In this document: one piece after another, positions 14,590 to 49,588 of the stretch
Layout of the letters: each line of letters starts with the position of its first letter
Position numbering within the stretch: the first letter of the stretch is position 1
The notes under the pieces: model-generated
Databases searched by the model: none
Seen by the model: the letters and a program-made list of their open reading frames with translations, nothing else
What the model was told of the DNA's origin: nothing
Assembly: GCF_003060965.1 (NCBI RefSeq)
Contig: NZ_QAII01000105.1
Span: forward strand, 1 to 49,588
Origin: Caulobacter sp. HMWF025
Lineage (GTDB): Bacteria > Pseudomonadota > Alphaproteobacteria > Caulobacterales > Caulobacteraceae
Reading direction: 5' to 3'
Length of the DNA stretch: 49,588 bases
Program-made: the position numbers and the translations under genes

Positions 14590-14598
14590 GGCGTAGCG

Positions 14599-15204: not shown

Positions 15205-15226
15205 TGCCCGTGAAGGTGAACTCCTG

Positions 15227-15694
15227 ATGTCCGTCCGCAAGTTTCATCCGGCCAACCGTCTCGGGGCCATGATCAAGCAGAAGGGCGGTATGCTGGTTCA
15301 GAACGCCATCGCCGCCGCCGAGGCCGGCGTGGAGAGTTTGCGGGAGGCTTCCCTGAAGTCGCTCGATGACACCCTGACAGAAATGGAAGCGCGCTTCGGT
15401 CCCAAGGCCGATCGCTCTGACGCGGCCTTCGAGGATCTCTACGCGCTGTGCCTGCGGATCGTGGACGTTGCCGGCTTTGCGTCCGAGACCGGGGTCGACA
15501 AGGCAATCATGTCATTCTGCAATCTCGTCGACAATTGCGCCGAGGCCGGAACCTGGCGCTGGGACTCGGTCGACGTCCACCTCGATGCACTGCGGCTGCT
15601 GCGGTCCGTCGGGGCGCAGTTGCCGCCGGCCGACCGGGCAAACATGCTTGAAGGCCTCTACAGAGTCAGCGGGTTCCGGCCCGGCGAGTCCTGA
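15227..15694 (+). CDS. cheE: CheE, last gene of the che operon, unknown function
   Basis: This 155-residue protein is soluble and apparently all-helical: IKQKGGMLVQNAIAAAEAGV, then EDLYALCLRIVDVAG and HLDALRLL. The ATG at 15227 follows GAAGGTGA, and the frame remains open upstream across cheYIII without coding sense. The name follows its position at the end of the C. crescentus operon. I recognise no catalytic motif. A helical bundle suggests a protein-protein interaction role in CheY-P or kinase control, which is inference only. Confidence 0.75.
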   Translation: MSVRKFHPANRLGAMIKQKGGMLVQNAIAAAEAGVESLREASLKSLDDTLTEMEARFGPKADRSDAAFEDLYALCLRIVDVAGFASETGVDKAIMSFCNLVDNCAEAGTWRWDSVDVHLDALRLLRSVGAQLPPADRANMLEGLYRVSGFRPGES

Positions 15695-15719
15695 TAACTA
15701 CTGGACTATCCGGTCGCGT

Positions 15720-15736
15720 CCGGGGTCCTTGCCCGG
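15720..15736 (+). terminator. weak hairpin between convergent cheE and nagA
   Basis: CCGGG and CCCGG flank GTCCTTG in the 55-bp gap between two convergent operons. No T run follows, so only position supports a terminator role. Confidence 0.25.
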
Positions 15737-15749
15737 CCGCAGCCCCTGG

Positions 15750-16892: not shown

Positions 16893-17971
16893 CAGACGGT
16901 TTCTGTCACCTTGTTGAGGTGTGGGGGGCAGTCGGGATCATAGCCGCGCGCAACGGAAAGCGCATTGGCCATGCGATAAAAGCTCTGGATCATCAAGAGG
17001 GGCTCCAGAACGGGATGGGCCGCCAGGGCGGGCAGGGTCGAACCCGTAGTCTGGCCTGCCTGGACAAGCATGACATCCGCATCCCTGGCCGAGAGGCCGC
17101 TGGCCATGGCGTCGACGCTCTCGCGGCTCTCGTCGTTCTGGGCGAAGACCAGGACCGGAAAACCGGCCGTTACCAGGGCCATCGGACCGTGCAGGACTTC
17201 TGCAGCGCTGAAGGCCTCGGCATGGAGCCCGCAGGTCTCCTTGAATTTCAGGGCAGCCTCCTGGGCAACGCCAAAGCCCACGCCACGACCGAGCACATAG
17301 AGATTGTGTGCTGATTGGAGGCGTTCCACTGCCGGTGACCAGTCGAGCGACCAGGCGTCCGCAAGTCCGGAGGGCAGGGCGGTCAGGCCCGATCTCAGCT
17401 CTGCGTCCTCAGTCCAGGCTGCCACGAGGTGCACGATGGCCGAGAGCGCGGCGATATAGGACTTGGTCGCGGCCACGCTCAGTTCCGGCCCCGCATGCAG
17501 GGGCAGGACCTCGTCGGCGAGGTCCGCGAGAGGCGAAGTCGTGTCATTGACCAGGGCCACCGTGAAGGCCCCGGCCGCCTTGGCTGCCCGAACCGAAGCC
17601 AGCAGGTCGGGGCTTTTTCCCGACTGCGAGATGGCCAGATAGAGCACCCCGTCCATGGCCTGGGGCGCGGCATAGACCGAGCTGACAGACAGTCCGGCGG
17701 ACGCGGTGAGCACACCGGTCCGGGTTTCGATCAGGTACTTGGCGAAGGTCGCGGCGTGGTCTGAGCTGCCGCGTGCACAGGTGACCACGGCGCGGGGCGG
17801 ATGCGCCCGCAGACGGGCTCCGAGGGTCTCGGCCCGCTCGGCATTCAGGCCGAGTTGGGTGGCGACGACCGCCGAAGCCTGGCCCGCTTCCTGGAACATG
17901 CGGGTCGACTCTGGAGCCTTTGCGCCCGCGGCAGCGGGGGTCTTGGGTCGGGTCAAGGTGGTCGCCTCCAA
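16892..17971 (-). CDS. nagB: SIS-domain glucosamine-6-phosphate deaminase (NagB-II type)
   Basis: This protein of about 359 residues has two sugar-isomerase (SIS) domains, with the first phosphosugar loop at CARGSSDHAATFAKYLIE and AISQSGKSPDLLASVR. It ends near VARGYDPDCPPHLNKVTETV. It resembles the glutamine-independent half of GlmS. Such NagB-II/AgaS-type enzymes convert GlcN-6-P to fructose-6-P plus ammonia and replace classical NagB in Caulobacter and Shewanella nag clusters. The start is not ATG. TTG at 17971 has AGGAAA upstream, TTG at 17956 has GGAGG upstream, and an internal ATG lies at codon 24. I give the longest. The gene sits 13 bp after nagR. Confidence 0.9.
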   Translation of the reverse strand: MEATTLTRPKTPAAAGAKAPESTRMFQEAGQASAVVATQLGLNAERAETLGARLRAHPPRAVVTCARGSSDHAATFAKYLIETRTGVLTASAGLSVSSVYAAPQAMDGVLYLAISQSGKSPDLLASVRAAKAAGAFTVALVNDTTSPLADLADEVLPLHAGPELSVAATKSYIAALSAIVHLVAAWTEDAELRSGLTALPSGLADAWSLDWSPAVERLQSAHNLYVLGRGVGFGVAQEAALKFKETCGLHAEAFSAAEVLHGPMALVTAGFPVLVFAQNDESRESVDAMASGLSARDADVMLVQAGQTTGSTLPALAAHPVLEPLLMIQSFYRMANALSVARGYDPDCPPHLNKVTETV

Positions 17972-35188: not shown

Positions 35189-35219
35189 GCCGTCATTCCT
35201 TCCCGACGATCCCTGTGCC

Positions 35220-35256
35220 GGGGAGGGGGCCCGCATGGTCTCCTCCCCCTTTTTTT
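35220..35256 (+). terminator. Rho-independent terminator between galactan TBDT and beta-galactosidase
   Basis: GGGGAGG (35220-35226) pairs with CCTCCCC (35242-35248), then a C and seven T residues. It stands 31 bp after the TBDT stop and only 22 bp before the next ATG. It therefore probably lowers expression of the enzyme relative to the receptor. Confidence 0.75.
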
Positions 35257-35277
35257 GATTTCGTGAGAGGCTCGCCC

Positions 35278-37776
35278 ATGGTCCAGATCAATCGCCGTCA
35301 GGCTCTGGCTGCAACGGCCGGCGTCGCCACCCTGGCCCACGCGCCGTCAGGCCTGGCTCAGACTGCATCGGTCTCTACGGTCGATCTGGCGCCGCGCGAG
35401 CGCCTCTCTCTGGACTTCGACTGGCGCTTCGCCCTGGGCCATGCCCGGGACCCGGCCCGTGACTTCGGGTTCGGGGCCAACCAGCGCACGTTTGCCAAGG
35501 CCGGCGCCACGGCCGCCAACTGGCGGGTTGCCGACGCCGCCCAGGCCGATTTCGACGACAGCGCCTGGGCACCGGTCACCCTGCCGCACGACTGGGCCGT
35601 CACACTGCCCTTTGTGAACAACCCGGACTACAGGCCCAGCGGCAAGCCCGACGACGAGGATCTGCGCGCTGCCCACGGCTACAAGCCGCTGGGTCGAGAG
35701 TTTCCCGACACCAGCGTCGGCTGGTATCGCAAGACCTTTGCCCTGCCCGCCACAGACGCCGGCCGGCGCCTCTCCATCGAGTTTGACGGGGCCTTCCGCG
35801 ACACGACGGTGATCGTCAACGGCTATGTCCTCGAGCGTGAGGACAGCGGCTACAGCCCCTTCCGTGTGGACATCACCGACATCGCCAATGTCGGCGGCGA
35901 CAACATCCTGACGGTTCGCGTCGATGCCAGTCTCGGCGAGGGCTGGTTCTATGAAGGGGCCGGACTCTACCGCCACGTCTGGCTGGTCAAGACCGCGCCG
36001 GTCCATGTGCCCCAGTGGGGCGTTTTTGTTCGCGCCCGGACCGATGGCACGGTCGAGATCGACACTGATCTGGTCAATGAGAGTGCCGTCCCGGCTGCGT
36101 TTGACCTGAGCCACGCCGTGCTGGAGGCGTCTGGCAAGGCTGTGCTGGCCGTGGCACCGGCCACGGGGCGTCTGCCGGCCTGGCAGCGCCAGAGCCTGTC
36201 CCAGACCGTGACCCTGGTCGCGCCGGATCTCTGGTCGCTGGAAAATCCGCACCTCTACAGCCTCGTCACCGAAGTGAAGGTCGGCGGGGCGGTGGTCGAC
36301 CGGTTCGTCACCCGGTTTGGCGTGCGGGCGGTACGGTTCGACCCGGACCTGGGCTTCTTCCTCAATGACAGGCCGGTGAAGCTGAAGGGTAGCTGCAATC
36401 ACCAGGATCACGCCGGGGTCGGCGCGGCCCTTCCCGATGCCCTGCAGGTCTGGCGGCTGGAACAGCTGAAGAGCATGGGCTGCAACGCCTATCGCACCTC
36501 GCACAATCCGCCGACGCCCGAGCTACTGGATGCCTGTGACCGGCTGGGACTGCTGGTCATTGACGAGACCCGCCGGATGTCCAGCGATCCGACCTCCATG
36601 GACGAGCTGGAACGGCTGGTGCGCCGCGACCGCAACCACCCCTCGGTGGTCCTGTGGTCGATCGGCAATGAGGAGCCCCAGCAGGGCACGGCGCGCGGGG
36701 CCCGGGTGGCCCGAACGATGAAGCGACTGGTCAATCGCCTGGACCCTACGCGCGGGGTCACCGCCGCCCTCGACTCCGGCTTCGGCGAAGGCATTACCGA
36801 GGCGCTGGACGTCATCGGCTTCAACTATCGCCACGAGAAGATGGACGAGTTTCACACCCGTTTCCCCACGCTGCCGATCATCGGCAGTGAGAGCGGCAGC
36901 GTGGTGACCACGCGCGGCGAATATGCCCGCGACGAGGCCAGGAGCTATGTTCCGGCCTATGACACCGACCACCCCTGGTGGGCGACCACAGCCGAAAAGT
37001 GGTGGAGCCATGCGGCGGACCGCCCGTGGATGGCCGGTGGCTTCATCTGGACCGGCTTCGATTATCGCGGTGAGCCGACGCCGTTCAACCGCTGGCCCAG
37101 CATCAGCTCGCACTTCGGCGCGCTCGACACCTGCGGCTTCCCGAAGGACAACTATTTCTACTACCGCGCCTGGTGGCGGTCAGAGCCGCTGCTTCATCTG
37201 CTGCCGCACTGGAACTGGGAAGGCCGCGAGGGCCAGCCGGTCGCGGTCTGGGCGCACAGCAACTGCGACAAGGTCGAGCTCTTCCTGAACGGCAAGAGCC
37301 AGGGGGTTCGGGCGGTGGTACCAAACCACCATGTCGAGTGGTTGGTGCCCTACGCACCGGGTGTGCTTGAGGCCCATGGCTACAGGAACGGCAAGCTGAT
37401 CCTGCGGGCCCGACGCGAGACGGCCGGTCCTGCAGCGGCCCTGCGCCTGACCGCTGACCGCGTGCGCCTGAAAGCTGACGGCCAGGATGTTGCGATCCTA
37501 AAGGTCGAGGTGCTGGACGCGAAGGGGCGACCGGTGCCGAAGGCCGATGACCTGGTGGCCTTTGACGTGGCCGGGCCTGGTCAGGTGATCGGCGTCGGCA
37601 ACGGCAATCCGACCAGCCACGAGCCCGACGTGGCCAGTCAGCGCAAGGCGTTTAACGGCCTGGCCCAGGCCATCGTCCGCACCCGTCGCGGCGAGCCGGG
37701 CGCCCTACGGATCACGGCCTCGGCGGCGGGGATCAAGTCCTCGACGGTGATCCTCGCGGCCGAAGCCGGCCTTTAG
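35278..37776 (+). CDS. GH2 beta-galactosidase, exported (Tat-like signal)
   Basis: This 832-residue enzyme starts [20 protein letters not shown], an Arg-pair signal resembling a Tat substrate, cut after GLA. The GH2 sugar-binding jelly roll (SWTP-like [12 protein letters not shown]) is at about 75-230, followed by an Ig-like domain. The barrel has acid/base E465 in [10 protein letters not shown] and nucleophile E538 in [11 protein letters not shown]-terminal Ig/DUF4982-like domains follow ([15 protein letters not shown]). GSESGS-type GH2 enzymes are usually beta-galactosidases, which fits hydrolysis of galacto-oligosaccharides released by GH53. Its 3' end overlaps convergent selD by 4 bp. Confidence 0.9.
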
Positions 37777-38843
37777 ACGCGGACGTTTACCTCGGCCGGG
37801 CCGTCGGACATCCGGCCGATGACTCGCGCTGATGTGAAGCCGGCCCCAGTGACCGCAGCGAGGACGGCTTCGACATCCTGAGGCGCGACGGCGATGAGCA
37901 GGCCGCCGCTGGTCTGGGGATCGGCCAGAAGGTCTCGTCGCCAGTCTGGCGTGCCGGGTGGCAAGTGAACCGACAGACCATAGCTCGCCCAGTTGCGGAC
38001 CGCGGCACCCGTCCGGACACCGGCCTGGGCCAGATCGGCGACGTCGGGCAGCAGGTCAGGGGCATTGCCGTCGAGCTGCGCAGAAAGTCCGGCACCGCGG
38101 CACATTTCGAGCAAATGCCCGAGCAGTCCAAAGCCCGTTACGTCGGTCACGGCATGGACCCCCTCGATCTGGCCGAGGGTTGCGCCGACGCTGTTCAACT
38201 GGGTCGTTGTCGCGATCAGCGCGGCATAGCCTTCGGGGGAAAGGCGCTGCTGCTTGAAGGCTGCGCTGAGGACGCCCACCCCGAGGGCCTTGGTCAGGAT
38301 CAGCACATCCCCGTTACGCGCGCCGCGATTGGACAGCACGCGGTCTGGATGGACGAGACCCAGGGCGACCAGGCCATAGATGGGCTCGACGCTGTCGATC
38401 GAGTGGCCGCCGGCGATCGGTATGCCTGCGGCCGCGCAGACGGACGCCCCGCCGGCCAGGATCGCGCCGATGGTTTCGACCGGCAGCCGGTCGATCGGCA
38501 TGCCGACGATGGCCAAGGCGAAGATCGGTGTCGCGCCCATGGCATAGACGTCCGAGAGGGCGTTGGTGGCGGCGATGCGCCCAAAGTCATGGGGATCGTC
38601 GACGACCGGCATGAAGAAGTCCGTCGTCGCCACCAGGGCCTGGCTGTCGTTCAGCCGCCAGACGGCCGCATCGTCCGAGGTTTCGGTGCCGACCATAAGG
38701 TTGGGGAACAGGCCGGCGGCAGGCGACTGGGCCAGGATGTCCCGCAGCACGGCGGGCGAGAGCTTGCAGCCGCAGCCGCCGCCATGGGCCAGGGAAGTCA
38801 GTCGGACGGGATCTGGCACAGCGGTCGTCTCCGAAGCGGTCAT
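37773..38843 (-). CDS. selD: selenide, water dikinase (selenophosphate synthase)
   Basis: This 356-residue enzyme makes selenophosphate from selenide and ATP. The catalytic loop is GGGCGCK, with C24 at the position that is Cys or Sec in the family (here a normal Cys codon) and K27 as the conserved lysine. [41 protein letters not shown] and [13 protein letters not shown] are all classical. Length is normal. It is divergent from mnmH across 108 bp, and the product is the Se donor for that enzyme. No selA, selB or tRNA-Sec is in the window. Confidence 0.96.
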
Positions 38844-38951
38844 GTCGGTCGGACCTTACGATTCCCGGAGAGCCTGCGCATAGTCTCGACAGACTGATCG
38901 CGATGGACTGTACCGAATGACTTGTTTCTGCCTGCGGACCGCCCCCTGCCC

Positions 38952-40028
38952 ATGAAGCCCGTTCAGGTCCTTAACGCCGCCGACCCGGCCTCGCTGGCGG
39001 CCTTTGACGAGATCATCGATGTGCGCAGTCCTGGCGAGTTCGCGCTCGACCATCTGCCCGGAGCCATAAACCTGCCGGTCCTCGACGATGCCCAGAGGGC
39101 CGAGGTCGGAACGATCTATGTCCAGGAGTCGCGGCTGAGGGCGAACCGGATCGGGGCGGCGCATGTGGCCCGAAACATAGCCCGCCACCTTGAGACGGCG
39201 CTTGCCGATCGGCCCGAAGGCTACCGGCCGCTGGTCTATTGCTGGAGGGGCGGCCAGCGTTCGAATGCCATGGCCACCATCCTGTCGCGGATCGGCTGGC
39301 GTACGACCGTCCTCGACGGCGGCTACCGCACCTATCGCCGCTGGGTGCAGGCGCGGCTCTATGAGGACGCCTGTGCCCTGTCGCTGATCCTGCTGGACGG
39401 CAATACCGGTTCGGCCAAGACGGCGATTCTAGAGCGCTTGCCGGCGCTGGGCGTGCAGATCCTGGATCTTGAAGCCCTGGCCTGCCATCGCGGCTCTCTG
39501 TTCGGGGCCGTGCCGGGTCAGCCCCAGCCGGACCAGAAGGCGTTCGAAAGCCGGTTGCTGGCGGCCCTCCAGGCCCTCGATCCTGCGCGCCCCGTCGTCG
39601 TCGAGGCCGAGTCGAGCAAGATCGGCAATCGCGTCGTGCCCCCTATGCTTTGGGAGGCGATGTGTCAGGCCTCGCGGATCGAGGTGACGGTCCCAAGGCC
39701 GGAGCGCGCACGTTATCTGGTCCAGGCCTATGGCGACATAGGCGCGCACCGGGAGGTGCTACTGGCCATTCTCGAAAAGCTGCCGGTGCATCCCAGCCAG
39801 AGGTGCCTGGGGGTCTGGCGCGAGATGGTTGAGCGAGGCGAACTGACCGACCTGGCCGAAGCCCTGATGGCCGCCCACTATGATCTGGCCTATGCCAGCG
39901 GACGCCGGAAGTCCGGGCAGGAGACTCTGAAAACGATCGGCCTGGAGCGGCTTGACGCTGCTGGCCTCGACGCCGCTGCGCGGGACCTAGCGACCTTTGT
40001 ATCAGCGTGGAGGCCGCCCGGGACCTAG
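38952..40028 (+). CDS. mnmH: tRNA 2-selenouridine synthase
   Basis: This 358-residue enzyme swaps sulfur for selenium at wobble U34 of tRNAs for Lys, Glu and Gln, through a geranylated intermediate. The N-terminal rhodanese domain has the catalytic C97 in VYCWRGGQRSNAM, the same number as in E. coli. The second domain has a P-loop, DGNTGSAKTAIL, with Ala in place of the usual Gly before Lys. ATG 38952 fits the start of the rhodanese fold; an earlier in-frame start adds ten unlikely residues. It pairs with selD. Confidence 0.94.
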   Translation: MKPVQVLNAADPASLAAFDEIIDVRSPGEFALDHLPGAINLPVLDDAQRAEVGTIYVQESRLRANRIGAAHVARNIARHLETALADRPEGYRPLVYCWRGGQRSNAMATILSRIGWRTTVLDGGYRTYRRWVQARLYEDACALSLILLDGNTGSAKTAILERLPALGVQILDLEALACHRGSLFGAVPGQPQPDQKAFESRLLAALQALDPARPVVVEAESSKIGNRVVPPMLWEAMCQASRIEVTVPRPERARYLVQAYGDIGAHREVLLAILEKLPVHPSQRCLGVWREMVERGELTDLAEALMAAHYDLAYASGRRKSGQETLKTIGLERLDAAGLDAAARDLATFVSAWRPPGT

Positions 40029-40136: not shown

Positions 40137-41138
40137 ATGCGCGCGACGATCAAGGATGTGTCTGCCCTTGCCGGCGTCTCGACCAAAACTGTGTCGCGGG
40201 TTCTCAATCGGGAAAAATACGTTTCTGAAGACCTGCGGCAGCGGGTCGAGGGCGCGATGGCCCAGCTCAACTTTCAACCCAGCGCGGCAGCCCGCATGCT
40301 GGCGGGCAAGCGGAGTCACCAGATCGCCCTGGTCTACGGAAGCCAGAGCCCCCACTACATCCATCAGATCCAGACCGGCATCTGGGCGCGTTGCGTCGAG
40401 GAGGGGGTCCGGCTGTTGGCCCAGCCAAGTGACGCAGACTCACCCGACCTTGCCCTTGAGGTCGGCAGCCTGATCGACCAGACCCAGGTCGATGGCGTCA
40501 TCCTCTCCGCGCCGGTCACAGATTCTGAGGCTGCGCTCGACGAGCTCGACCGCCGGCGCATGCCCTATGTTCGCATCTCGCCGGGTACGGATCATGGTCG
40601 TAGCTCGTCGGTGTCAATGGATGACGTCCAGGCCGCCGATGACATGACGAGTCACCTGATCGCGCTGGGGCACAAGCGCATTGGCTTCATCATCGGCCAC
40701 ACCAATCATGCGGCCAGCGACCTGCGACTGTTCGGCTATCGCCGGGCCCTGGATCGGGCGGGCCTTGCCTATGAGCCCAGATATGTCCGGCAGGGCTATT
40801 TCGACTTCGCTTCGGGCGAGGCGGCGGCAGAGATGTTGCTGGATCTGCCCAATGCCCCGACCGCCATATTCGCCAGCAATGACGACATGGCCGCCGGCGT
40901 CCTGGCCGTCGCCCACCGCCGGGGCCTGGCCCTGCCGGAGCAACTCTCGGTCGCCGGTTTCGATGACATCGCCCTGGCCGGCCAGATCTGGCCGCCGCTC
41001 ACAACGGTAAGGCAGCCGACGCGGGAGATGGCCTATGCCGCAGCCGCGCTATTGTTCGAAGGGGTCGAGGGTCCGGTCCATCGCCGCATTGCCCACGAAC
41101 TGGTGCTGCGGGCCTCGACTGCAGCACCGGGCGCCTGA
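40137..41138 (+). CDS. LacI-family transcriptional regulator
   Basis: This 333-residue repressor has an N-terminal helix-turn-helix (ATIKDVSALAGVSTKTVSRV with the hinge helix SAAARMLAGKRS) and a periplasmic-binding-protein-like effector domain (GVILSAPVTDSEAALDELDR, FIIGHTNHAASDLRLFGY, IFASNDDMAAGVLAVA, VAGFDDIALAGQIWPPLTTV). Effectors of this family are mostly sugars. It stands between the selenium genes and the exporter of the SQ cluster, convergent with the latter. A LacI-type site in the exporter promoter makes control of the SQ cluster likely. Control of the galactan cluster, 3 kb upstream, is the alternative. Confidence 0.93.
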   Translation: MRATIKDVSALAGVSTKTVSRVLNREKYVSEDLRQRVEGAMAQLNFQPSAAARMLAGKRSHQIALVYGSQSPHYIHQIQTGIWARCVEEGVRLLAQPSDADSPDLALEVGSLIDQTQVDGVILSAPVTDSEAALDELDRRRMPYVRISPGTDHGRSSSVSMDDVQAADDMTSHLIALGHKRIGFIIGHTNHAASDLRLFGYRRALDRAGLAYEPRYVRQGYFDFASGEAAAEMLLDLPNAPTAIFASNDDMAAGVLAVAHRRGLALPEQLSVAGFDDIALAGQIWPPLTTVRQPTREMAYAAAALLFEGVEGPVHRRIAHELVLRASTAAPGA

Positions 41139-41169
41139 CAGAAAGTCGGGCTTTGAGGGCAGGGCGACC

Positions 41170-42153
41170 CTAGCCCGGTATCAGGACCTTCGCTGCCACG
41201 ATGCTCAGGCCCAGGGCGATGAGCGTAGCGATGACGATCACCAGCAGCGGCTTCAGGCCATTCTGGGTCAGGGACTTCATGTTGGAGCGGATGCCGGTCG
41301 CCGTGACCGCACAGGCGAGCAGGGCGGCAGCCGTCTTGCTGGCCCCCTCGCCGAGGACCGGGGGAATGAAGCCGAAGGAGTTCACGGCGGCCAGTCCGAA
41401 AAACCCGATCACGAACCAGGGCAGGATCGGGCTGGTCACCTTCGAATCTGGATCCTTGGGCAGAAAAATCGCCACGACCATCATCGCGGGGGCGAGGAGA
41501 GCGACCCGTGTCAGCTTGACGATCGCCGCATTTTCTCCGGCGACCTGTGAGAAGGAATAGCCGGCCCCCAGGGCCTGGGCGACATCGTGGATTGACGCGC
41601 CGAGCAGGAAGCCGGCCTGTACGTCGCTGAGGTGCAGGTGGTGCGCCAGGACGGGGTAGACCGTCATGGCCAGAGCGCTCATGGCCGAGATGCCGACCAG
41701 GACCAGGGTCAACTGCGCCTGCGATGTGCGCCGCTCGCCGAGAAGGCTGGAGAAAGCCATTGCGGCGGATGCCCCGCAGATCGCGACTGCGCCACCACAC
41801 AGGGCCCCGAAGGCTGCTGTGAAGCCGAAGCGGCGGGCGAGAAACACGCCGCTGGTCAGTGTGATCGCAACGATCGCCATGACGGCCAGGAGCGCAGCAG
41901 GACCCAGTTGAAGGATCTGGCTGAAGGTAATCCTCGTGGCGACCAGCACGATCCCCCAGCGGAGCAGGGTCCGTGAAGCAATGGTGAGGCCAGGCTCCAG
42001 CCGCTTGTCGTCAGCCAGAAAACTCATCGACAGTCCGAACAACAGACACATCAGGGTGAGGGGCGCGCCGTAGTGGTCGGAGACATAGGCTGCGGCCAGG
42101 GTTGCGAGGATCGCAACGGCGAGGCCTGGGGCATAAATGCTGCCCTTCTGCAT
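41170..42153 (-). CDS. yeiH: YeiH-family membrane protein, putative sulfate/sulfite exporter
   Basis: This 327-residue integral membrane protein has about ten hydrophobic segments. The YeiH (Cons_hypoth698/PSE) pattern is present: FGLSMSFLADDKRLEPGL, ALCGGAVAICGASAAMAFSS, GFLLGASIHDVAQALGAGYS and the C-terminal ACAVTATGIRSNMKSL. ATG 42153 is preceded by GGAGGAAAGC. The family is annotated as putative sulfate exporters, with little direct biochemistry. Here it is divergent from the SQ monooxygenase operon, whose reaction releases sulfite, so sulfite or sulfate efflux is a natural inference. Confidence 0.85.
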   Translation of the reverse strand: MQKGSIYAPGLAVAILATLAAAYVSDHYGAPLTLMCLLFGLSMSFLADDKRLEPGLTIASRTLLRWGIVLVATRITFSQILQLGPAALLAVMAIVAITLTSGVFLARRFGFTAAFGALCGGAVAICGASAAMAFSSLLGERRTSQAQLTLVLVGISAMSALAMTVYPVLAHHLHLSDVQAGFLLGASIHDVAQALGAGYSFSQVAGENAAIVKLTRVALLAPAMMVVAIFLPKDPDSKVTSPILPWFVIGFFGLAAVNSFGFIPPVLGEGASKTAAALLACAVTATGIRSNMKSLTQNGLKPLLVIVIATLIALGLSIVAAKVLIPG

Positions 42154-42217
42154 GCTTTCCTCCGCAACCAACCGGAAAATACCGCCTGATGCTCCGGTCT
42201 AGCGCCAGATCGCGGTC

Positions 42218-42231
42218 TGACACCGTTATCA
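42218..42231. promoter_or_regulatory. LacI-type operator candidate upstream of yeiH
   Basis: TGACACCGTTATCA is a CG-centred imperfect palindrome (5 of 7 position pairs match), 65 bp upstream of the yeiH start. The neighbouring LacI gene is the obvious candidate regulator. Confidence 0.4.
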
Positions 42232-42394
42232 TATTGCAGGCATGAGGCAACTGCGTGGGCCGATTTCCGTTCGGGGATGAGGCTTACCTTGTCCGATATC
42301 TGAAAGAGATTTGCTGTAAAAGAATATTTTAAAAATATACTTAAAATACAACTGTCCGTGAAGATTTTTTGTAGCTAATTTATATTTTAGTCAT

Positions 42395-42415
42395 TATGCA
42401 TTGTGGGTTTGCATA
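42395..42415. promoter_or_regulatory. inverted repeat upstream of smoB
   Basis: TATGCA and TGCATA are perfect 6-bp arms around the 9-bp spacer TTGTGGGTT, inside the AT-rich island 126 bp before the smoB start. It may be an operator for a regulator of the SQ operon; it does not look like a LacI site. Confidence 0.35.
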
Positions 42416-42540
42416 TGAATAATACGGTCCATATCTGGGATAAATCGTGCAATTTCCGGGTATTCAATTAGTTCGGATCGATTCCTGGCACGGAAAATTT
42501 GGTGCGCTGCAGCGTTGCCAAGGCGCGCTGTCTCGGTAGT

Positions 42541-43458
42541 ATGACAGCGATGACATACCTCAGCGCACCTTCCCGATCGCGGCCGCTCCATGATGGCGGG
42601 CCTGAAGTTTCGTCCCTCGCATGGGGCATGTGGCGGTTCCGCGGGGACGACGTCGCTGCCGCCAGATCGCTGGTTCTGGCAGCCCTCGACGCGGGTGTGA
42701 CGCTTTTCGACACGGCGGACATCTACGGGCCGGACAATGGCGAAGGCTTCGGGGCGTCCGAGGCCCTCCTGGGCCGCGTCCTCGCTGAGACGCCAGGGCT
42801 GGCCAGCCGGATGGTCATCGCCACAAAGGGCGGGATTGTCATCGGCACGCCCTATAACTCCAGCGCGACCTACCTCGCATCAGCCATCGATGCGTCACTG
42901 ACCCGACTGGGCGTCGAGCACGTCGCGCTGTGGCAGATTCACCGACCCGACATTCTGACCCACCCGGCGGAGGTGGCGCGTGCCCTTGAAGCGGCTCACG
43001 CGGCGGGCAAGATCGGGGCGGTCGGGGTGTCGAACTACACGCCCGCGCAGGTCGAAGCCCTGGCGGCTCACCTCGCGCTCCCGGTCGTGTCTTGCCAGCC
43101 GGAGTTTTCGCCCCTGGCCATCGGGCCGCTCACGGATGGTGTTCTGGATCAGGCCCTGACCCGCAACCTGACGGTGCTCGCCTGGTCGCCGCTTGGTGGC
43201 GGGCGTCTCGCGGCCCCGACCGACGCGCGTGGACGCGCTGTTTGCGCTGTGCTCGACGAGATCGCAGAGACCTACGATGTCTCCCGTTCGGCAGCGGCCT
43301 ACAGCTGGATCATGGCGCATCCAGCCCGACCCATTCCCATCGTCGGCACCCAGACGCTGGCCCGAATTGCTGAAATCCCCGACGCCTACAAGCCGCGCTG
43401 GACGCGTACCGACTGGTACCGCGTCCTCGTCGCCTCCATGGGAGCTCCCTTGCCATGA
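42541..43458 (+). CDS. smoB: aldo/keto reductase, probable 6-oxo-glucose reductase (SmoB-like)
   Basis: This NADPH-dependent aldo/keto reductase has about 305 residues. The catalytic tetrad is D57 and Y62 (LFDTADIYG), K96 (VIATKGG) and H134 (LWQIHRPD). VGVSNYTPAQVEAL and VAWSPLGGGRL-like LAWSPLGGGRL follow, and a nucleotide-binding tail (PIPIVGTQTLARI) is present. In the Agrobacterium sulfo-SMO pathway an AKR reduces the 6-oxo-glucose made by the monooxygenase to glucose, and this gene is fused by an ATGA overlap to such a monooxygenase. ATG 42541 or 42550 is the likely start; a TTG at 42499 is less likely. The specific substrate is inferred from context. Confidence 0.85.
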   Translation: MTAMTYLSAPSRSRPLHDGGPEVSSLAWGMWRFRGDDVAAARSLVLAALDAGVTLFDTADIYGPDNGEGFGASEALLGRVLAETPGLASRMVIATKGGIVIGTPYNSSATYLASAIDASLTRLGVEHVALWQIHRPDILTHPAEVARALEAAHAAGKIGAVGVSNYTPAQVEALAAHLALPVVSCQPEFSPLAIGPLTDGVLDQALTRNLTVLAWSPLGGGRLAAPTDARGRAVCAVLDEIAETYDVSRSAAAYSWIMAHPARPIPIVGTQTLARIAEIPDAYKPRWTRTDWYRVLVASMGAPLP

Positions 43459-44534
43459 GCCTTTCGTCTTCCACGCGCCCCCCTTGCGAGATCAGCTGGT
43501 TCTCCGCGCTCTGCGATGATGACTACGAGTTTTTGGGCGTTCCGGACCCCAAGCTGAAGTCGAGCTGGGAGCATTGCCGCGACATCGTCCTGCAGGCCGA
43601 GTCCGGTGGGTTCGACAACATTTTGCTGCCGTCAGGCTATGAGCTCGGCATCGATACAACGGCCTTTGCTGCGGGGATTGCCCCCATGCTTCGTCGCATG
43701 CGCCTGCTCATGGCCGTGCGGATCGGCGAGATGTGGCCGCCGCAACTGGTCCGTCAGATCGCCACCATTGACCGGATGCTGGGCGGTCGCCTGGCCATCA
43801 ACATCATCTCTTCCGACATGCCCGGCGAAAAGCTGGCCTCGGGCCCGCGCTATGCCCGGACGGTCGAGGCGATGAGCATCCTCAAGACCATGCTGAACGG
43901 CGAGCCGCTGGATCACCAGGGTGAGTTCTGGAACCTGAAGCTGGACCCGCCCCGGGTGACGACGGTCTCGGGCAAGGCTCCCTCGCTGTACTTCGGCGGC
44001 CTGTCGGAAGACGCCCGCGAGGCCGCCGCCAAAGGCTGCGATGTCTTCCTGATGTGGCCGGACAAGAAGGAGGTGGTCGCCGCGATCATCGCCGACATGA
44101 CCGAACGTGCGGCCCGCCATGGCCGGACCCTCCGCTTCGGCTATCGCGCCCACGTCGTCGTGCGTGACAGTGAAGCCGAGGCCCGTACGGCCGCCGATCG
44201 TCTGCTGAGCAAGCTGGATGAGGGCACAGGCGCAGCCATTCGCGCCAAGTCCCTGGATTCGACCTCGGTCGGGGTTCAGGCCCAGGCCGCCCTGCGCGAG
44301 AGCGCCAGTGATGACGGCTATGCCGAGGCCAATCTCTGGACCGGTGTGGGGCGTGCCCGTTCGGGTTGCGGTGCGGCGATCGTGGGGGACCCCGATCAGG
44401 TGCTGGCAAAGCTCAACGACTACCGCGAAATGGGGATCGAGGCCTTCATCCTCTCCGGCTATCCCCATGCGGCCGAGGCAGACCTCTTCGCCCGCCATGT
44501 CCTGCCGCACATCGACCACGGGCCCCTAGCCTAG
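43455..44534 (+). CDS. smoC: LLM flavin-dependent monooxygenase, probable sulfoquinovose monooxygenase (SmoC-like)
   Basis: This 359-residue enzyme is related to alkanesulfonate monooxygenase SsuD but resembles SmoC more closely as I recall it: ISWFSALCDDDYEFLGVPD, SSWEHCRDIVLQAE, INIISSDMPGEKLASGPRY and a C-terminus HIDHGPL. Active-site positions can be placed at W201 (LMWPD), R231 and H233 (YRAHVVV), and Y336-P-H338 (LSGYPHAAEAD). With reduced FMN and O2 it would split the C-S bond of SQ, giving sulfite and 6-oxo-glucose in the cytoplasm. It overlaps smoB (ATGA) and is followed 10 bp later by an FMN reductase. A role on another sulfonate is the main alternative. Confidence 0.87.
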   Translation: MSLSSSTRPPCEISWFSALCDDDYEFLGVPDPKLKSSWEHCRDIVLQAESGGFDNILLPSGYELGIDTTAFAAGIAPMLRRMRLLMAVRIGEMWPPQLVRQIATIDRMLGGRLAINIISSDMPGEKLASGPRYARTVEAMSILKTMLNGEPLDHQGEFWNLKLDPPRVTTVSGKAPSLYFGGLSEDAREAAAKGCDVFLMWPDKKEVVAAIIADMTERAARHGRTLRFGYRAHVVVRDSEAEARTAADRLLSKLDEGTGAAIRAKSLDSTSVGVQAQAALRESASDDGYAEANLWTGVGRARSGCGAAIVGDPDQVLAKLNDYREMGIEAFILSGYPHAAEADLFARHVLPHIDHGPLA

Positions 44535-44544
44535 TGCGCCGCTG

Positions 44545-45141
44545 ATGCTCGTCTCGCAAAATGATCAGGCCGGCCGACGGCCGTTCGTCGTCGGTATCGG
44601 TGGCACGGCGGGCGGGCCCTCGTCGACCGAGCGGGCCCTGTCCATCGCCATGTCGGCGGTCGCCGCGCGCGGGGTGGGCACCCTGATCTTCGGCGGTGAA
44701 TTTCTCGGACGTCTGCCGATCTTTGTGCCGAAGGCGCAGCGGACCCCCGAGGAACGCGAGCTTGTCGATGCGGTCCGACGCGCTGACGGCCTTCTGATCG
44801 CTTCGCCGGGTTACCACGGGTGCGTCTCGGGCATGGTCAAGAATGCCCTCGACCTGCTTGAGGAGACGGCCAAGGACAGCCGGGTCTATCTCAGCGGCAT
44901 GCCGGTTGGACTGATCGTGACGGCCTATGGCTGGCAGGCCACCGGCGGCACGCTGTCGGCCCTTCGTTCGGTTGTGCACGCCCTGAGGGGCTGGCCGACA
45001 CCGATGGCGGCCGCGATCAACAGCTCGATGTCGCGGTTCCGCGAAGACGGCACCTGCGAAGACCCTGCCGCGACCGGGCAACTCGGCCTGGTCGGCGACC
45101 AGGTTGCGGACTTTCTTCTAACACCCCGGAAGTCGGCATGA
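44545..45141 (+). CDS. smoA: NAD(P)H-dependent FMN reductase (SsuE-like), partner of the SQ monooxygenase
   Basis: This 198-residue flavodoxin-fold reductase has GIGGTAGGPSSTERALSIAM (FMN phosphate loop) and SPGYHGCVSGMVKNALDLLEE, the SsuE/ArsH-type flavin motif with a Gly-Tyr-His variant. It would supply FMNH2 to the monooxygenase encoded 10 bp upstream. It fills the role of Agrobacterium SmoA; whether the two belong to the same fold family I could not check. A terminator follows 5 bp after the stop, so smoB-smoC-smoA looks like one transcript. Confidence 0.85.
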   Translation: MLVSQNDQAGRRPFVVGIGGTAGGPSSTERALSIAMSAVAARGVGTLIFGGEFLGRLPIFVPKAQRTPEERELVDAVRRADGLLIASPGYHGCVSGMVKNALDLLEETAKDSRVYLSGMPVGLIVTAYGWQATGGTLSALRSVVHALRGWPTPMAAAINSSMSRFREDGTCEDPAATGQLGLVGDQVADFLLTPRKSA

Positions 45142-45146
45142 CGGCG

Positions 45147-45178
45147 CTGGGACGGTCCTGCAAGGCCGCCCAGTTTTT
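45147..45178 (+). terminator. Rho-independent terminator after smoA
   Basis: CTGGG-A-CGG (45147-45155) pairs with CCG-CCCAG (45166-45173), with one bulged A. Five T residues follow directly. It ends the smoBCA transcript ahead of the TBDT gene. Confidence 0.7.
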
Positions 45179-45191
45179 CTAGAGAGACCAA

Positions 45192-45231
45192 CGCCTCATC
45201 AAGAGGCGAGAACACCTACCCAAGAGGTAGG
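45192..45231 (+). promoter_or_regulatory. two tandem hairpins in the leader of the SQ-cluster TBDT
   Basis: CGCCTC-ATCAA-GAGGCG (45192-45208) and CCTACC-CAAGA-GGTAGG (45215-45231) are perfect 6-bp stems with 5-nt loops, 6 nt apart. Both include CAAGAGG (45200-45206 and 45221-45227), 21 nt apart in register. The Shine-Dalgarno GGAGG follows at 45243. They may form an RNA element controlling translation or stability, or a pair of DNA operator sites. Confidence 0.5.
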
Positions 45232-45258
45232 AATTAAGCAGTGGGAGGGACTAGAGAG

Positions 45259-47595
45259 ATGAAGAATCAAACCCAACGGACGCGCATGCTGGTCGGCACT
45301 GCGCTCTCAAGCCTGGTTCTGGCAGGAGTCCTGGCGACGCCGGCGCTGGCCCAGACCGGCGATGATGCACCGGTTGTCGCCGAGGTCATCGTCACGGCGC
45401 AGAAGCGTTCGGAAAATCTCCAGAAGGTGCCGATCTCCATCAGCGTCGTCAGCGGCGAGGCGATGGAACGGGCCAATGTCAATTCGGCTGAACAGCTGAT
45501 CCAGATGGCGCCGTCCCTGAGCTTCCGGAAGGGCAATTCCAACAAGGACTCGGCCCTGACCGTGCGTGGCGTAGGAACGATCTCCTTCGCATCCGGTGTC
45601 GAGCCGTCGGTTTCGACCGTCGTTGACGGCGTGGTCTATGCCCGCAGCGGCCAGGCCACGGCAGACTTCCTCGACCTCGAGCGCGTTGAAATCCTGCGCG
45701 GCCCCCAGGGAACCCTGTTCGGTAAAAACGCCTCTGCCGGCGTGATCAGCATGATCACCCGTGCGCCCAAGCATGAGCTGGACGGCTATGTCGACGCTTC
45801 CTACTATCAGGGTAATGAGTATCGGGTGCGCGGAGCGATCTCCGGCCCCCTAAGCGACACGGTCGCCGGCTCACTGGCGGCGTTCTTCAGCCACTATGAC
45901 GGCAACGGCAAGAACGTCTTCAACGGCGACGACATCAACGGCTACGAGCACAATGGCCTGCGCGGCCGCCTGCGCTGGGAGCCCACTGAAGACCTGACGG
46001 TCGACTTCATCGCCGACTATTCGCACAACGTCGACAATGGCTATGCCGACAGCATCGGCACCGTTTTCTCAAGCGCCTTCAACGATGCGGTCTTCTCGCC
46101 GTCGCTCAGGCCGCTGACGCCGGGTGCCGGCAACAAGGACATCGACAACGACCAGTCGCCGTTGACCAAGGATATCAACAGCGGCTTCTCGACCCAGGTG
46201 AACTGGTCGATCGGCGACTATACCGTCACCTCGATCACCGCCTATCGCAACTGGAAGAACCAGCAGACGCGGGATGGCGACTTCCGCTCGGATTCCCCGA
46301 CCTATGTCTCGACCGGGGCCCTGGCGGGTGACATCCGTTCTCATGACTATGGCCGGCTGAACTTTGACCAATTTACCCAGGAACTGCGGCTTGCCTCGCC
46401 GACCGGCCAGTTCCTCGAATACGTGGCCGGTCTCTATTACTACCACACCTGGGAGAGCAACTATTTCAACCGCACGGTCACCAAGTGCCTGAGCTCGACC
46501 CTCGCGCCTGTGACCCTGGGCGCTCTGGGTGCCGCTACCCCCTGTACCAAGGCCGCTTCGGTCTATGAGACCAATGCCGGTATCGGTGAATTCGCGACCA
46601 CGCTGAAGAACTACGCAGCGTTCGGTCAGGGCACGCTGAACTTCTCGCCTAACCTGCGCGGTATCTTCGGTGCCCGCTGGACCCAGGACGAGATCGATTT
46701 CGTGCATCGCCGCCTCCGCACCTCGGGTGCCGCAGCCCTGAGCGGCGTCAACCCGACCTTCGCCGCCACCGGCGGGACAAAGGCTGACGGCTGGTCCGGC
46801 AAGCTGGGCGTCCAATACGACGTCGTGCCGACGATGATGGCCTACGGCAGCTATACCCGGGGCTACAAGGGCCCGGCGATGAACGTGTTCTTCAACATGC
46901 AGGCCAACGACAACTTCGGCATCGCGCCGGAAACGTCGGATGCCTATGAGGTGGGTCTGAAGTCGCGTCTGCTGGACGGTCGCCTTGTCCTGAACGTCTC
47001 GGCTTTCGACACGACCTACGACAACTTCCAGGCCAATAACCAGGACATGATCGGCACCACGGTCATTACCCGCCTGACCAACGCTGGATCCGTCAAAACC
47101 CAGGGCTTTGAAGCCGACTTCACCCTGGAGCCGGTGCGCAACCTGCGGATCAATGGCGGCTATGCCTATATCGACGCCAAGATCGACAAGTTCAAATGCC
47201 CGACCACGGGCACCTGCGCCGCGCTGGCCATCAACGGCAAGCCGCTGCCCTATTCATCCAAGCACAAGCTCTCGATGAACGGCAGCTACTTCATGCCGCT
47301 GGAAGGCCAGGCGTTCGATCTCGATTTCAATGTCGGCGCGCAATACCAGAGCAAGATGGGTTTCGACATCAACCAGAACCCGAATGCCGTCCAGAAAGGC
47401 TACGCCACGGCTGACGCCAGCGTCGCCTTTGTGGGCAAGAACAACCGCGTCCGACTGGCCCTCATCGCCAAGAACCTGACGGACGAAAACTTCGTCATCA
47501 ACCGTATCCCCAACGGCACGTCCTTCCTTCGGCAGATCACGCCCCGGGATGCCGAGCGCTATTTCGGCGCGACGCTCCGTTACAACCTCTTCTAG
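45259..47595 (+). CDS. TonB-dependent receptor of the sulfoquinovose cluster
   Basis: This 778-residue outer-membrane transporter has a signal peptide (MLVGTALSSLVLAGVLATPA, cut after ALA). The TonB-box/plug begins AEVIVTAQKRSENLQKVPIS, with LIQMAPSLSFRKGNSN and VEILRGPQGTLFGKNASAGV. The barrel ends in Phe (YFGATLRYNLF). It is of the VTAQKR subclass, unlike the EIVVTG receptors of the nag and galactan clusters. Its place between smoA and the sulfoquinovosidase suggests import of SQ glycosides such as sulfoquinovosyl glycerol. ATG 45259 has GGAGG upstream; a GTG at 45241 overlaps that site. Terminators lie on both sides, so it forms its own transcript. Confidence 0.9.
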   Translation: MKNQTQRTRMLVGTALSSLVLAGVLATPALAQTGDDAPVVAEVIVTAQKRSENLQKVPISISVVSGEAMERANVNSAEQLIQMAPSLSFRKGNSNKDSALTVRGVGTISFASGVEPSVSTVVDGVVYARSGQATADFLDLERVEILRGPQGTLFGKNASAGVISMITRAPKHELDGYVDASYYQGNEYRVRGAISGPLSDTVAGSLAAFFSHYDGNGKNVFNGDDINGYEHNGLRGRLRWEPTEDLTVDFIADYSHNVDNGYADSIGTVFSSAFNDAVFSPSLRPLTPGAGNKDIDNDQSPLTKDINSGFSTQVNWSIGDYTVTSITAYRNWKNQQTRDGDFRSDSPTYVSTGALAGDIRSHDYGRLNFDQFTQELRLASPTGQFLEYVAGLYYYHTWESNYFNRTVTKCLSSTLAPVTLGALGAATPCTKAASVYETNAGIGEFATTLKNYAAFGQGTLNFSPNLRGIFGARWTQDEIDFVHRRLRTSGAAALSGVNPTFAATGGTKADGWSGKLGVQYDVVPTMMAYGSYTRGYKGPAMNVFFNMQANDNFGIAPETSDAYEVGLKSRLLDGRLVLNVSAFDTTYDNFQANNQDMIGTTVITRLTNAGSVKTQGFEADFTLEPVRNLRINGGYAYIDAKIDKFKCPTTGTCAALAINGKPLPYSSKHKLSMNGSYFMPLEGQAFDLDFNVGAQYQSKMGFDINQNPNAVQKGYATADASVAFVGKNNRVRLALIAKNLTDENFVINRIPNGTSFLRQITPRDAERYFGATLRYNLF

Positions 47596-47610
47596 ATCTG
47601 TCCTGCAACT

Positions 47611-47652
47611 CGGGCCCGGCACCGCCTTCTCCCCTGCCGGGCCCGTCTTTTT
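47611..47652 (+). terminator. Rho-independent terminator after the SQ-cluster TBDT
   Basis: CGGGCCCGGC (47611-47620) and GCCGGGCCCG (47636-47645) form a perfect 10-bp stem, followed by TCTTTTT. Confidence 0.85.
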
Positions 47653-47710
47653 CAGACTGAAACGCCCATCGCTCCGCCAGTCGCAGCGAGCCTTCGTCCG
47701 GAGTTCAGAC

Positions 47711-49588
47711 GTGCTCAAGGTCATCGCCCTCGCGGATGGTTTCGAGATCCAGGCCGGCGGTCGCACGGTACTCCGTCATGCATCCGCAGAACCCTGCCTG
47801 TTCATCGGCCGGGGCGAAGCTGACGTTCAGATGCAACGCGGTAACTTCGCGATCTCCGACTATGTCAGTGAACGGATTCCACTTCGTTCAGCGACGCTGT
47901 CGCAGGACGACGACGGTTTAAAGGTCCGGTTCGCCGCATCAGAAGCTGGCCCGGCTGAACTGCTGATGGCCATTGGCGAGGAAGGCCACCTGAAGTTTCA
48001 GGGCGTGTCCGAGGCGATCAACCGGCTTTGGCTGAGAGTTCCGGCCACCAAGGACGAACATGTCTGGGGTGGTGGCGAACAGATGTCCTATTTCGACATG
48101 CGCGGCCGGCATTTCCCCTTGTGGACCTCCGAGCCGGGCGTGGGGCGAGACAAGTCGACCCAGCTGACCTGGATGGCGGACCAGGCCGGTGCCGGCGGCG
48201 ACTACTTCCATACCAACTATCCGCAGCCGACCTTTGTTTCCTCCCGGCGCTATGCGCTGCACGTCGAGACGACGGCCTATTCAGCCTTTGATTTCCGGCA
48301 TGCCGACTTCCATGAGATCGAGGTCTGGGCTGTTCCGGACGCTATCGAGCTCTTTGCGGGCGATACCTTCGTCGATCTGGTTGGAGTCCTTTCGGACCGG
48401 TTCGGACGCCAGCCGCCGTTGCCGGACTGGGTTCTGAACGGAGCCATTGTCGGGCTCAAGCAAGGCGCGGAAAGCTTTGATCGTCTTCAAGCCTATGTCG
48501 CCTCCGGAGCCGCCATCTCGGGGCTCTGGTGCGAGGACTGGGTCGGTCTGAGGATCACCTCGTTTGGCAAGCGCCTCTTCTGGGACTGGAAGTGGAATGC
48601 CGAGCGCTATCCCGGCCTGGATCATAAGATCACCGAACTCGCCGGGCAGGGCATCCGCTTCCTGGGTTACGTCAATCCCTATCTCTGCGTGGACGGGTCG
48701 CTGTTTCCGGTCGCGGAAAAGGCCGGCTACCTGGCCAGGCGCCTGGACAGTGACGCGACCTACCTCGTTGATTTCGGCGAGTTCGATTGCGGCGTCGTCG
48801 ACTTCACCAATCCTGAAGCGGCCGACTGGTTCGCCGACACCATAATCGGCGGCGAAATGCTGGACTTCGGCCTGTCCGGATGGATGGCGGACTTTGGCGA
48901 GTATCTTCCCACCGATGTACGCCTCGCCAATGGCGTCGACGGCATGCTGATGCACAATGCCTGGCCGACCATCTGGGCCAAGGTCAATGCGGACGCGGTC
49001 GCCCGCCGGGGTAAGACAGGCGAGGCCCTGTTCTTCATGCGGGCCGGCTACACCGGCGTGCAGCGCTACTGCCCGCTGCTCTGGGCCGGGGATCAGTCCG
49101 TGGACTTCACCCGCCATGACGGCATTGGAACTGTCGTTTGCGCGGCCCTGTCATCAGGGCTTCTGGGCAACGCCTATCACCACAGTGACATCGGCGGCTA
49201 CACCAGCCTGTTCGGCAATGTTCGTACGGCCGAGCTCCTGATGCGCTGGAGCGAGATGGCGGCCTTCACGGCCGTGATGCGCTCGCATGAGGGTAATCGG
49301 CCGGACCAGAACCTGCAGCTGGACCAGGATCCCGAAGTTCTCGCGCACTTTGCCCGGATGACCCGGATCTACCGGCACCTGGCACCCTACATCCGCTTCC
49401 TCGGCAACGAGGCATCGGAGGCGGGGCTGCCCCTGCAGCGGCCTCTCTTCCTGCACCATGAGGACGACGCACGGACCTATGCCGAGCAGACCCAGTACCT
49501 GTTCGGTCGCGACCTTCTGGTCGCCCCGGTTCTTGAGGCGGGCGTCCGCTCGCGCTCCGTCTACCTGCCTGCCGGGACCCAATGGATC
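47711..49588 (+). CDS. smoI: GH31 sulfoquinovosidase (YihQ/SmoI-like), 3' end missing
   Basis: 626 codons are present; E. coli YihQ has 678, so about 50 are missing. The start is GTG 47711 with GGAG 7 bp upstream. No signal peptide is seen, so the enzyme is probably cytoplasmic. All residues that define sulfoquinovosidases align with YihQ (numbers from memory): R288 and W291 in TSFGKRLFW (R301, W304, sulfonate binding), nucleophile D394 in WMADFGEYLPTD (D405), acid/base D461 in WAGDQSVDF (D472) and Y497 in HHSDIGGYTSLF (Y508). It releases SQ from SQ glycosides, feeding the monooxygenase. An ordinary alpha-glucosidase or xylosidase would lack the KR..W and DFGEYLPTD signatures. Confidence 0.94.
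   Translation, partial: MLKVIALADGFEIQAGGRTVLRHASAEPCLFIGRGEADVQMQRGNFAISDYVSERIPLRSATLSQDDDGLKVRFAASEAGPAELLMAIGEEGHLKFQGVSEAINRLWLRVPATKDEHVWGGGEQMSYFDMRGRHFPLWTSEPGVGRDKSTQLTWMADQAGAGGDYFHTNYPQPTFVSSRRYALHVETTAYSAFDFRHADFHEIEVWAVPDAIELFAGDTFVDLVGVLSDRFGRQPPLPDWVLNGAIVGLKQGAESFDRLQAYVASGAAISGLWCEDWVGLRITSFGKRLFWDWKWNAERYPGLDHKITELAGQGIRFLGYVNPYLCVDGSLFPVAEKAGYLARRLDSDATYLVDFGEFDCGVVDFTNPEAADWFADTIIGGEMLDFGLSGWMADFGEYLPTDVRLANGVDGMLMHNAWPTIWAKVNADAVARRGKTGEALFFMRAGYTGVQRYCPLLWAGDQSVDFTRHDGIGTVVCAALSSGLLGNAYHHSDIGGYTSLFGNVRTAELLMRWSEMAAFTAVMRSHEGNRPDQNLQLDQDPEVLAHFARMTRIYRHLAPYIRFLGNEASEAGLPLQRPLFLHHEDDARTYAEQTQYLFGRDLLVAPVLEAGVRSRSVYLPAGTQWI

Follow-up and report, generated by a model that had tools for sequence, protein, structure and literature searches.

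Described sulfoquinovose pathways and the Caulobacter locus

Sulfoquinovose (SQ) is among the most abundant organosulfur compounds, at about 10 billion tons a year (PMC12890257). Its degradation by the SQ monooxygenase route (sulfo-SMO, also termed sulfo-ASMO) has been studied in Agrobacterium tumefaciens and Novosphingobium aromaticivorans, and the enzymes SquD and SquF have been characterised (PMC9594981, PMC12890257). Bacteria that follow this route recover all six SQ carbons and release inorganic sulfur. Here, we analysed a stretch of 49,588 bases from Caulobacter sp. HMWF025 (hereafter the window; bases 1-49588 of contig 42, which has 72,372 bases, in an assembly of 3.96 Mb and 176 contigs). 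Its right end carries a gene cluster that is very probably a catabolic operon for SQ glycosides, most likely sulfoquinovosyl glycerol (SQGro), acting by the sulfo-SMO route. As judged from the sequence, the operon is real and nearly complete, and the pathway itself is known and frequent in this bacterial group. New relative to the literature searched is a TonB-dependent receptor (TBDT) that stands as a well-supported candidate for carrying SQ across the outer membrane. The gene set places caulobacters among the likely SQ degraders; it also offers a defined candidate gene for the outer-membrane step of sulfosugar uptake and raises the question of whether such uptake is TonB-dependent.

The system of N. 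aromaticivorans, discovered through a search for clusters that contain a YihQ-type sulfoquinovosidase (SQase), has an SQ monooxygenase and an aldo-keto reductase (AKR) like the window, but its cluster is without an SsuE-like reductase (PMC9594981), whereas the window has a reductase of family PF03358. In its congener N. pentaromativorans (L133), TBDT, GH31, LacI regulator, AKR and SmoC lie together as in the window, with a glycerol-3-phosphate (G3P) dehydrogenase and a glycerol kinase in addition. The A. tumefaciens system shares with the window SmoB, SmoC, a GH31 SQase carrying identical SQase residues and the same predicted chemistry. It imports SQGro by an ABC transporter (PMC9594981), whereas the window has a TBDT and a permease of the major facilitator superfamily (MFS). 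According to PMC10755693, sulfo-SMO clusters can also contain GH188 genes; the legend of its Fig. 5 lists Sphingomonas sp. Leaf17 as one example. The Leaf17 cluster (L118) resembles the window in LacI, YeiH, MFS, TBDT, AKR, SmoC and FMN reductase, but has an NAD+-dependent SqgA-type GH188 instead of GH31. The plasmid-borne Smo operon of Rhizobium sp. SL42 (L135) shares SmoC, AKR and the YeiH-type exporter, and differs by a TRAP transporter, a GH188, a FerA/HpaC-type reductase and the lack of a TBDT within its 25 kb. Novosphingobium has also been listed among assimilators of 13C-SQ (PMC13372026).

Concerning the outer membrane, the word 'TonB' is absent from the main text of PMC9594981 and from PMC10755693, as are 'transporter' and 'outer membrane' from the main text of PMC13372026. 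Among the papers listed in a literature search, titles and abstract beginnings pointed to none that deals with a receptor for SQ; outside that search lie Sharma 2022 and Liu 2021, either of which may mention one.

Gene layout and conservation of the cluster

The sequence-only reading had described an AKR, a flavin monooxygenase, an FMN reductase, a TBDT and a GH31 SQase lying together with a divergent exporter. Analysis of open reading frames (ORFs) and domains found all of these genes at the places given (window 40137-49588). Two further members are a LacI gene upstream, within the window, and an MFS gene directly downstream, beyond it:

40137..41138, + strand: LacI-family regulator (PF00356 and Peripla_BP_3)
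41170..42171, - strand: YeiH-type (PF03601) putative sulfate/sulfite exporter (188 bits to PF03601, above its cut-off)
42499..43458, + strand: SmoB/SquF-like AKR, predicted 6-dehydroglucose reductase (PF00248; best solved chains 7bbz/7bby)
43455..44534, + strand: SmoC/SquD-like FMNH2-dependent SQ monooxygenase, LLM family, predicted (best solved chains 7olf/7oh2; tree)
44545..45141, + strand: NAD(P)H FMN reductase, SsuE/MsuE-like, presumed FMNH2 supplier (PF03358 65 bits)
45241..47595, + strand: TBDT, presumed outer-membrane importer of SQ or SQ-glycerol (PF07715 plug and PF00593 barrel)
47711..49588, + strand: GH31 SQase, YihQ/SmoI-like, K-E-R-W-Y type, C-terminus past the window end (NF007746, 5ohy/5ohs, residues)
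contig 49778-50998, outside the window: MFS permease of 406 amino acids, directly behind GH31

The AKR gene probably starts at ATG 42541 or 42550. The junction of smoB and smoC, CCATGAGC, bears the ATGA overlap that had been read from the sequence, and the gene order and the five SQase residues given with it were likewise borne out, by coordinates and alignment. Genomes with SmoB and SmoC, all hits lying within 10 ORFs, have been counted as sulfo-SMO (PMC13372026); the window has both genes within this distance, and they overlap. The GH31 gene starts at GTG 47711 and runs off the window end, where a 10-N assembly gap (L004 9590-9599) lies inside it at 49588 with a repeat of about 36 bases on both sides. 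A broken gene was considered and rejected, since a gap with repeated flanks looks like a scaffolding overlap; read beyond 49588, as had been proposed, GH31 continues past the gap and the MFS gene follows. The same gene order is kept in two genomes of the order (G171 and G042) and in an uncultured Caulobacter contig (L053), as far as these stretches reach, and the layout is therefore not due to chance.

A search of 299 genomes of the order found SmoC in 26, the source genome included, at E<=1e-60, and surroundings were examined for 20 of the 25 others. Since only 4 of the 18 genomes listed for the genus carry SmoC, the cluster is patchy. A scan of one genome per species confirmed at least 558 SmoC relatives; the best 80 of these 558, which by record titles come mainly from Caulobacteraceae and Sphingomonadaceae, were kept. 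The locus counts below refer to the 51 full-length named loci of at least 20 kb among these 80 (29 shorter ones were left out) and, unless stated otherwise, to matches of at least 80 bits to any query, namely the window proteins and those of four plasmid loci. The AKR is found in 48/51; in 36 of the 40 loci where both genes are on the same strand, no more than 400 bases separate the end of its ORF from the SmoC ORF. An SQase accompanies SmoC in 46/51, either GH31 (13) or GH188 (33) and never both; GH188 was assigned through a single representative (L134), which matches chains 8qc2/8qc3, named SqgA in PMC10755693. MFS occurs in 43/51, LacI of the window's kind in 37/51, the YeiH-type exporter in 29/51 and a relative of the FMN reductase in 11/51. 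A sulfo-ED-type dehydratase (3/51) and an ABC ATPase (4/51, none at 200 bits) are rare, and none of the 51 has a SmoA-type reductase, a TRAP transporter or an ABC binding protein of the kinds tested. The TBDT (41/51, see below) and the putative sulfur-oxyanion exporter, both claimed earlier as cluster partners, are thus frequent ones. The idea of a special variant is not supported, as the layout recurs in Caulobacteraceae and Sphingomonadaceae, the pathway is documented in N. aromaticivorans and Leaf17 appears in a published figure legend.

Glycerol kinase and G3P dehydrogenase are each present in 7/51 loci (5 and 4 at 200 bits), and GH31 is present in all seven with the kinase. At the 80-bit threshold the two glycerol genes occur only beside GH31 (7/13, vs 0/33 with GH188).

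On plasmids, 115 records match SmoC at 1e-50, of which 15 show 60-80% identity (Rhizobium group and sphingomonads), while many of the remaining matches are SsuD-like Pantoea genes. One plasmid of Rhizobium sp. WSM4643 (L132, 1-13047) carries a SmoC homologue 77% identical to that of the window, without an adjacent AKR. It is divergent from an ABC importer, followed by an L-arabinonate dehydratase, an aldolase, an SMP-30 lactonase, an SDR and a K-E-R-W-Y-type GH31, and looks like a sulfo-ED operon with an SQ monooxygenase alongside.

The enzymes resemble those of SQ degradation

SmoC of the window scores 388 and 381 bits against the solved chains 7olf and 7oh2, which we take to be SmoC (their PDB names are generic), vs 224 for 7jv3 and 199 for the SsuD chains 1nqk/1m41. 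Its identity to 7oh2/7olf is 52-54%, and to a Pantoea SsuD 37.5%. For SmoB, the best chains are 7bbz/7bby (155/154 bits), presumably SmoB and again generically named, followed by 7twz (141). GH31 exceeds the cut-off of NF007746 (879.7 bits, cut-off 553) and scores 971 and 969 bits against 5ohy and 5ohs, which we assume to be Agrobacterium SQases under generic PDB names, then 801 for 8r56, 742 for 6pnr and 686 for YihQ 5aed. The nearest solved relative of all three proteins is hence what we take to be an SQ-pathway enzyme, and for SmoC and GH31 its lead over the other chains is wide. The oxidative SQ pathway and the SmoB, SmoC and SQase identities proposed from the sequence are sustained by these scores, by the tree and by the residues below.

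In a SmoC tree of 108 rows, with bootstrap not settled and a very long SsuD outgroup branch, the window groups with G171, G042 and L053 (100/99). A distinct 9-row clade (100/100), made up of chains 7oh2/7olf, Rhizobium SL42 and six genomes of the order, excludes the window, so that the window SmoC, judged by this tree, is a member of the sister clade; if 7oh2/7olf are SmoC, this also sets it apart from the A. tumefaciens system. SmoC of N. pentaromativorans (L133) falls on the window's side. The same-genus G101 branches at a great distance from the window, and rows from Phenylobacterium and other caulobacters lie close to it, a distribution that would fit horizontal transfer.

The tree also bears on whether the monooxygenase and reductase could be a sulfur-scavenging, SsuD/SsuE-like alkanesulfonate system, induced by sulfur starvation rather than serving as a carbon pathway. 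The best NCBIfam model for SmoC is indeed the SsuD equivalog (245 bits, under its cut-off of 518), and the reductase is a PF03358 protein with weak SsuE/MsuE matches. However, the monooxygenase groups with SmoC and is set apart from SsuD by both scores and tree, smoC overlaps smoB, an SQase is near in 46/51 loci, and the tested ABC binding protein is in 0/51. On scores, tree and SQase linkage we rejected such a system, which seems very improbable. A clustering with SsuD, named beforehand as a result that would refute the sequence-only reading, is not seen.

The FMN reductase named in the sequence-only reading is present in the cluster and is a PF03358 protein. At the threshold used, BLAST did not match it to the flavin reductase in the SL42 operon of Rhizobium, a protein that hits models of the FerA/HpaC type, and we presume that the Agrobacterium Smo reductase also belongs to another family than the window's. 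Comparison with SmoA/B/C/I and YihQ, suggested earlier, thus places SmoB, SmoC and GH31 nearest to the presumed SQ-pathway chains, whereas the reductase is presumably of another family than SmoA. As a review reports an SsuE homologue in many sulfo-SMO clusters and none in some (PMC9594981), a SmoA-kind reductase is not a required feature.

The GH31 protein carries K250, E275, R288, W291 and Y497 (numbering from GTG 47711), and its catalytic positions are occupied by D394 and D461. The five positions counted as SQase residues are K/Q, E/Q, R, W and Y (motifs KERWY/QQRWY). In an alignment of the window with 24 other sequences, four of them cut off and left uncounted, these residues are identical in 18/18 high-scoring (>=709 bits) sequences covering the columns and differ in 2/2 low-scoring non-SQase GH31s (L037, L201). 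The N-terminus from GTG 47711, VLKVIALADGFEIQ, has no signal peptide visible by eye; hydrolysis of the SQ glycoside is therefore probably cytoplasmic, and the intact glycoside would have to cross both membranes.

The 52-54% identity of the SmoC clade to the solved chains would also leave room for an SQase-monooxygenase set that acts on a related sulfosugar, such as an SQ epimer, instead of SQ. Yet the SQase residues are present in GH31, whose closest solved chains are 5ohy/5ohs, and the alternative partner in other loci is the GH188 SqgA family; we regard such a substrate as a slight possibility.

The TonB-dependent receptor is linked to the SQ genes

From its position we infer that the TBDT takes up SQ or SQ-glycerol, and its placement between FMN reductase and GH31 recurs in L032, L033 and L053. 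At E<=1e-120, it has counterparts in 20/26 genomes with SmoC vs 10/273 without (Fisher p 8e-19, uncorrected for kinship). In the 20 genomes with both genes, they lie within 4 kb in 11, about 12 and 22 kb apart in two, and on different contigs in 7. Among the loci, a TBDT with at least 35% identity and at least 250 bits to that of the window or of two other Smo loci is co-located in 41/51 vs 0/20 control stretches (p 1.3e-10, again uncorrected for kinship), the controls being 19-kb stretches hand-placed in nine genomes that carry SmoC and belong to the same order as the window, and most of the 51 loci coming from sphingomonads. Any TBDT at 80 bits was seen in 4/20 controls.

A first tree made by a quick method, which contained no near relatives from SmoC-negative genomes, united 63 cluster TBDTs in one clade and left 26 TBDTs of the source genome (those with an ORF over 550 amino acids, of 29 loci), 5 control and 7 bystander sequences outside. 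As a harder test, we examined the neighbourhoods of 10 TBDTs from SmoC-negative and 7 from SmoC-positive genomes and built two further trees. One, a FastTree, took in all sequences; for the other, again made by the quick method, we kept 37 of the 63 cluster TBDTs, together with 5 of the 26 from the source genome and 5 controls. In the FastTree, the group is weakly supported (0.66) and leaves some cluster TBDTs outside. In the second quick tree, nine of ten background rows fall together and one very long branch (L167) elsewhere, which makes its root uncertain. Exclusivity of the TBDT to SQ clusters was rejected once these near relatives were added.

The surroundings of the six SmoC-negative relatives that fall among the cluster TBDTs in these trees differ. 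In L200 (G236, 3375-13996), TBDT, SQase-type GH31, LacI, AKR and MFS lie together in a genome that is not SmoC-positive at E<=1e-60; this genome is 87% complete, and smoC may have been lost or missed, or another C-S cleaving enzyme may be used instead. In L197 (G159, 8351-17797), the receptor is beside an SSF symporter, an LMW phosphatase, a G3P-dehydrogenase-like protein, a 2-hydroxyacid dehydrogenase, a protein of YeiH type and one resembling sulfolactate dehydrogenase (186 bits, below the cut-off of 500), possibly a C3-sulfonate cluster with its own TBDT. No linked pathway surrounds the TBDT in L192, L195 and L198, two of which are on 5-kb contigs.

An alternative is that the receptor imports other cargo (another glycoside, some other sulfonate or an iron chelate) and is a mere neighbour, SQ entering by general porins. 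In NCBIfam it scores best with models for receptors of siderophores, heme and B12, though all of the matches listed (25 of 26) are under their cut-offs. TBDTs are common, with 48 PF00593 matches in the source genome, some perhaps pieces of one gene, and relatives lie beside a GH13 gene (L193) and beside the L197 gene set in genomes without SmoC. Set against this are the placement shared with L032, L033 and L053, the co-occurrence and co-location with SmoC, the distance of within 4 kb in 11/20 genomes, and the position of all 26 own TBDTs of the first tree outside the cluster group. A receptor for other cargo therefore seems unlikely to us, and an SQ or SQ-glycerol receptor is preferred.

Tentatively, and with rather more doubt than for the operon itself, caulobacters and sphingomonads may possess a dedicated, undescribed TBDT family that, together with the MFS permease, actively scavenges SQ-glycerol at low concentration. 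Such a family would have travelled between orders along with the SMO cluster, in company with either type of SQase. Given the relatives in the possible C3-sulfonate cluster, it may extend more broadly to receptors for organosulfonates.

Predicted pathway and findings that weigh against it

Following the chemistry of the sulfo-SMO pathway as described in section 10 of PMC9594981, the TBDT would bring SQGro (or SQ) across the outer membrane and the MFS permease across the inner one, and the cytoplasmic GH31 would liberate SQ. SmoC, with O2 and FMNH2 from the PF03358 reductase, would cut the C-S bond to yield sulfite and 6-dehydroglucose, which SmoB would reduce to glucose for the Entner-Doudoroff route. 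The YeiH-type protein would export surplus sulfite/sulfate, and LacI would control the whole set. The sequence establishes which enzyme families are present, how their genes are ordered and how far they are conserved; what is imported, in which direction the transporters work and how the genes are controlled are predictions. SQ-glycerol is favoured as substrate because N. pentaromativorans has glycerol kinase and G3P dehydrogenase behind SmoC.

The TBDT had been proposed to replace the ABC importer. As the two act in different membranes, it is not a substitute, and the MFS permease just past the window probably fills that role. In NCBIfam, this permease scores highest against the D-galactonate transporter subfamily (141.7 bits, under the cut-off of 395); permeases of this type carry anionic sugars. 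LacI, which has the same place in L032, L033 and L053, is a probable repressor of the SQ cluster.

In the source genome, edd is over its cut-off, NIR_SIR-family matches lie on two contigs, and there is a single PF00174 match, which from its ORF and the traits of the family is presumably MsrP-like. Sulfite oxidation was rejected with respect to PF00174, the one sulfite-oxidising family searched; assimilation or export of sulfite is therefore likelier than oxidation by that family.

Several findings weigh against this reading. SmoC is in a sister clade of the solved chains rather than in the same one, and that N. aromaticivorans SquD belongs to the window's clade is guessed from N. pentaromativorans only. 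Neither SQase is present in 5/51 loci, the TBDT is missing in 10/51 and MFS in 8/51. The exporter reaches the PF03601 cut-off, but only 127 bits against TIGR00698 (cut-off 232.6). A search of the window for palindromes of 14-20 bases, with at most one mismatch per half, gave no convincing LacI operator: the one site, at 42206, is weak and 14 bases long, and the regions in front of lacI and the TBDT contain none. Finally, TBDTs of the same family occur in the 10/273 genomes without SmoC, both later trees place six of the 10 SmoC-negative TBDTs among the cluster ones and four outside, and one of these six (L193) adjoins a GH13 amylase-type gene. The receptor is thus strongly tied to the SQ genes but not exclusive to them.

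Neighbouring genes

Just before the cluster (window 37773-40028), genes for SelD (- strand) and the selenouridine synthase MnmH (+ strand) are divergent, so that the source genome probably makes selenium-modified tRNA. Further upstream, domain matches reveal two more TonB receptors (window 20124-21560 and 33818-35083), and a large ORF at 35215-37776 appears by eye to encode a GH2-like glycosidase; together, these suggest a second glycan-use region upstream of the SQ cluster.

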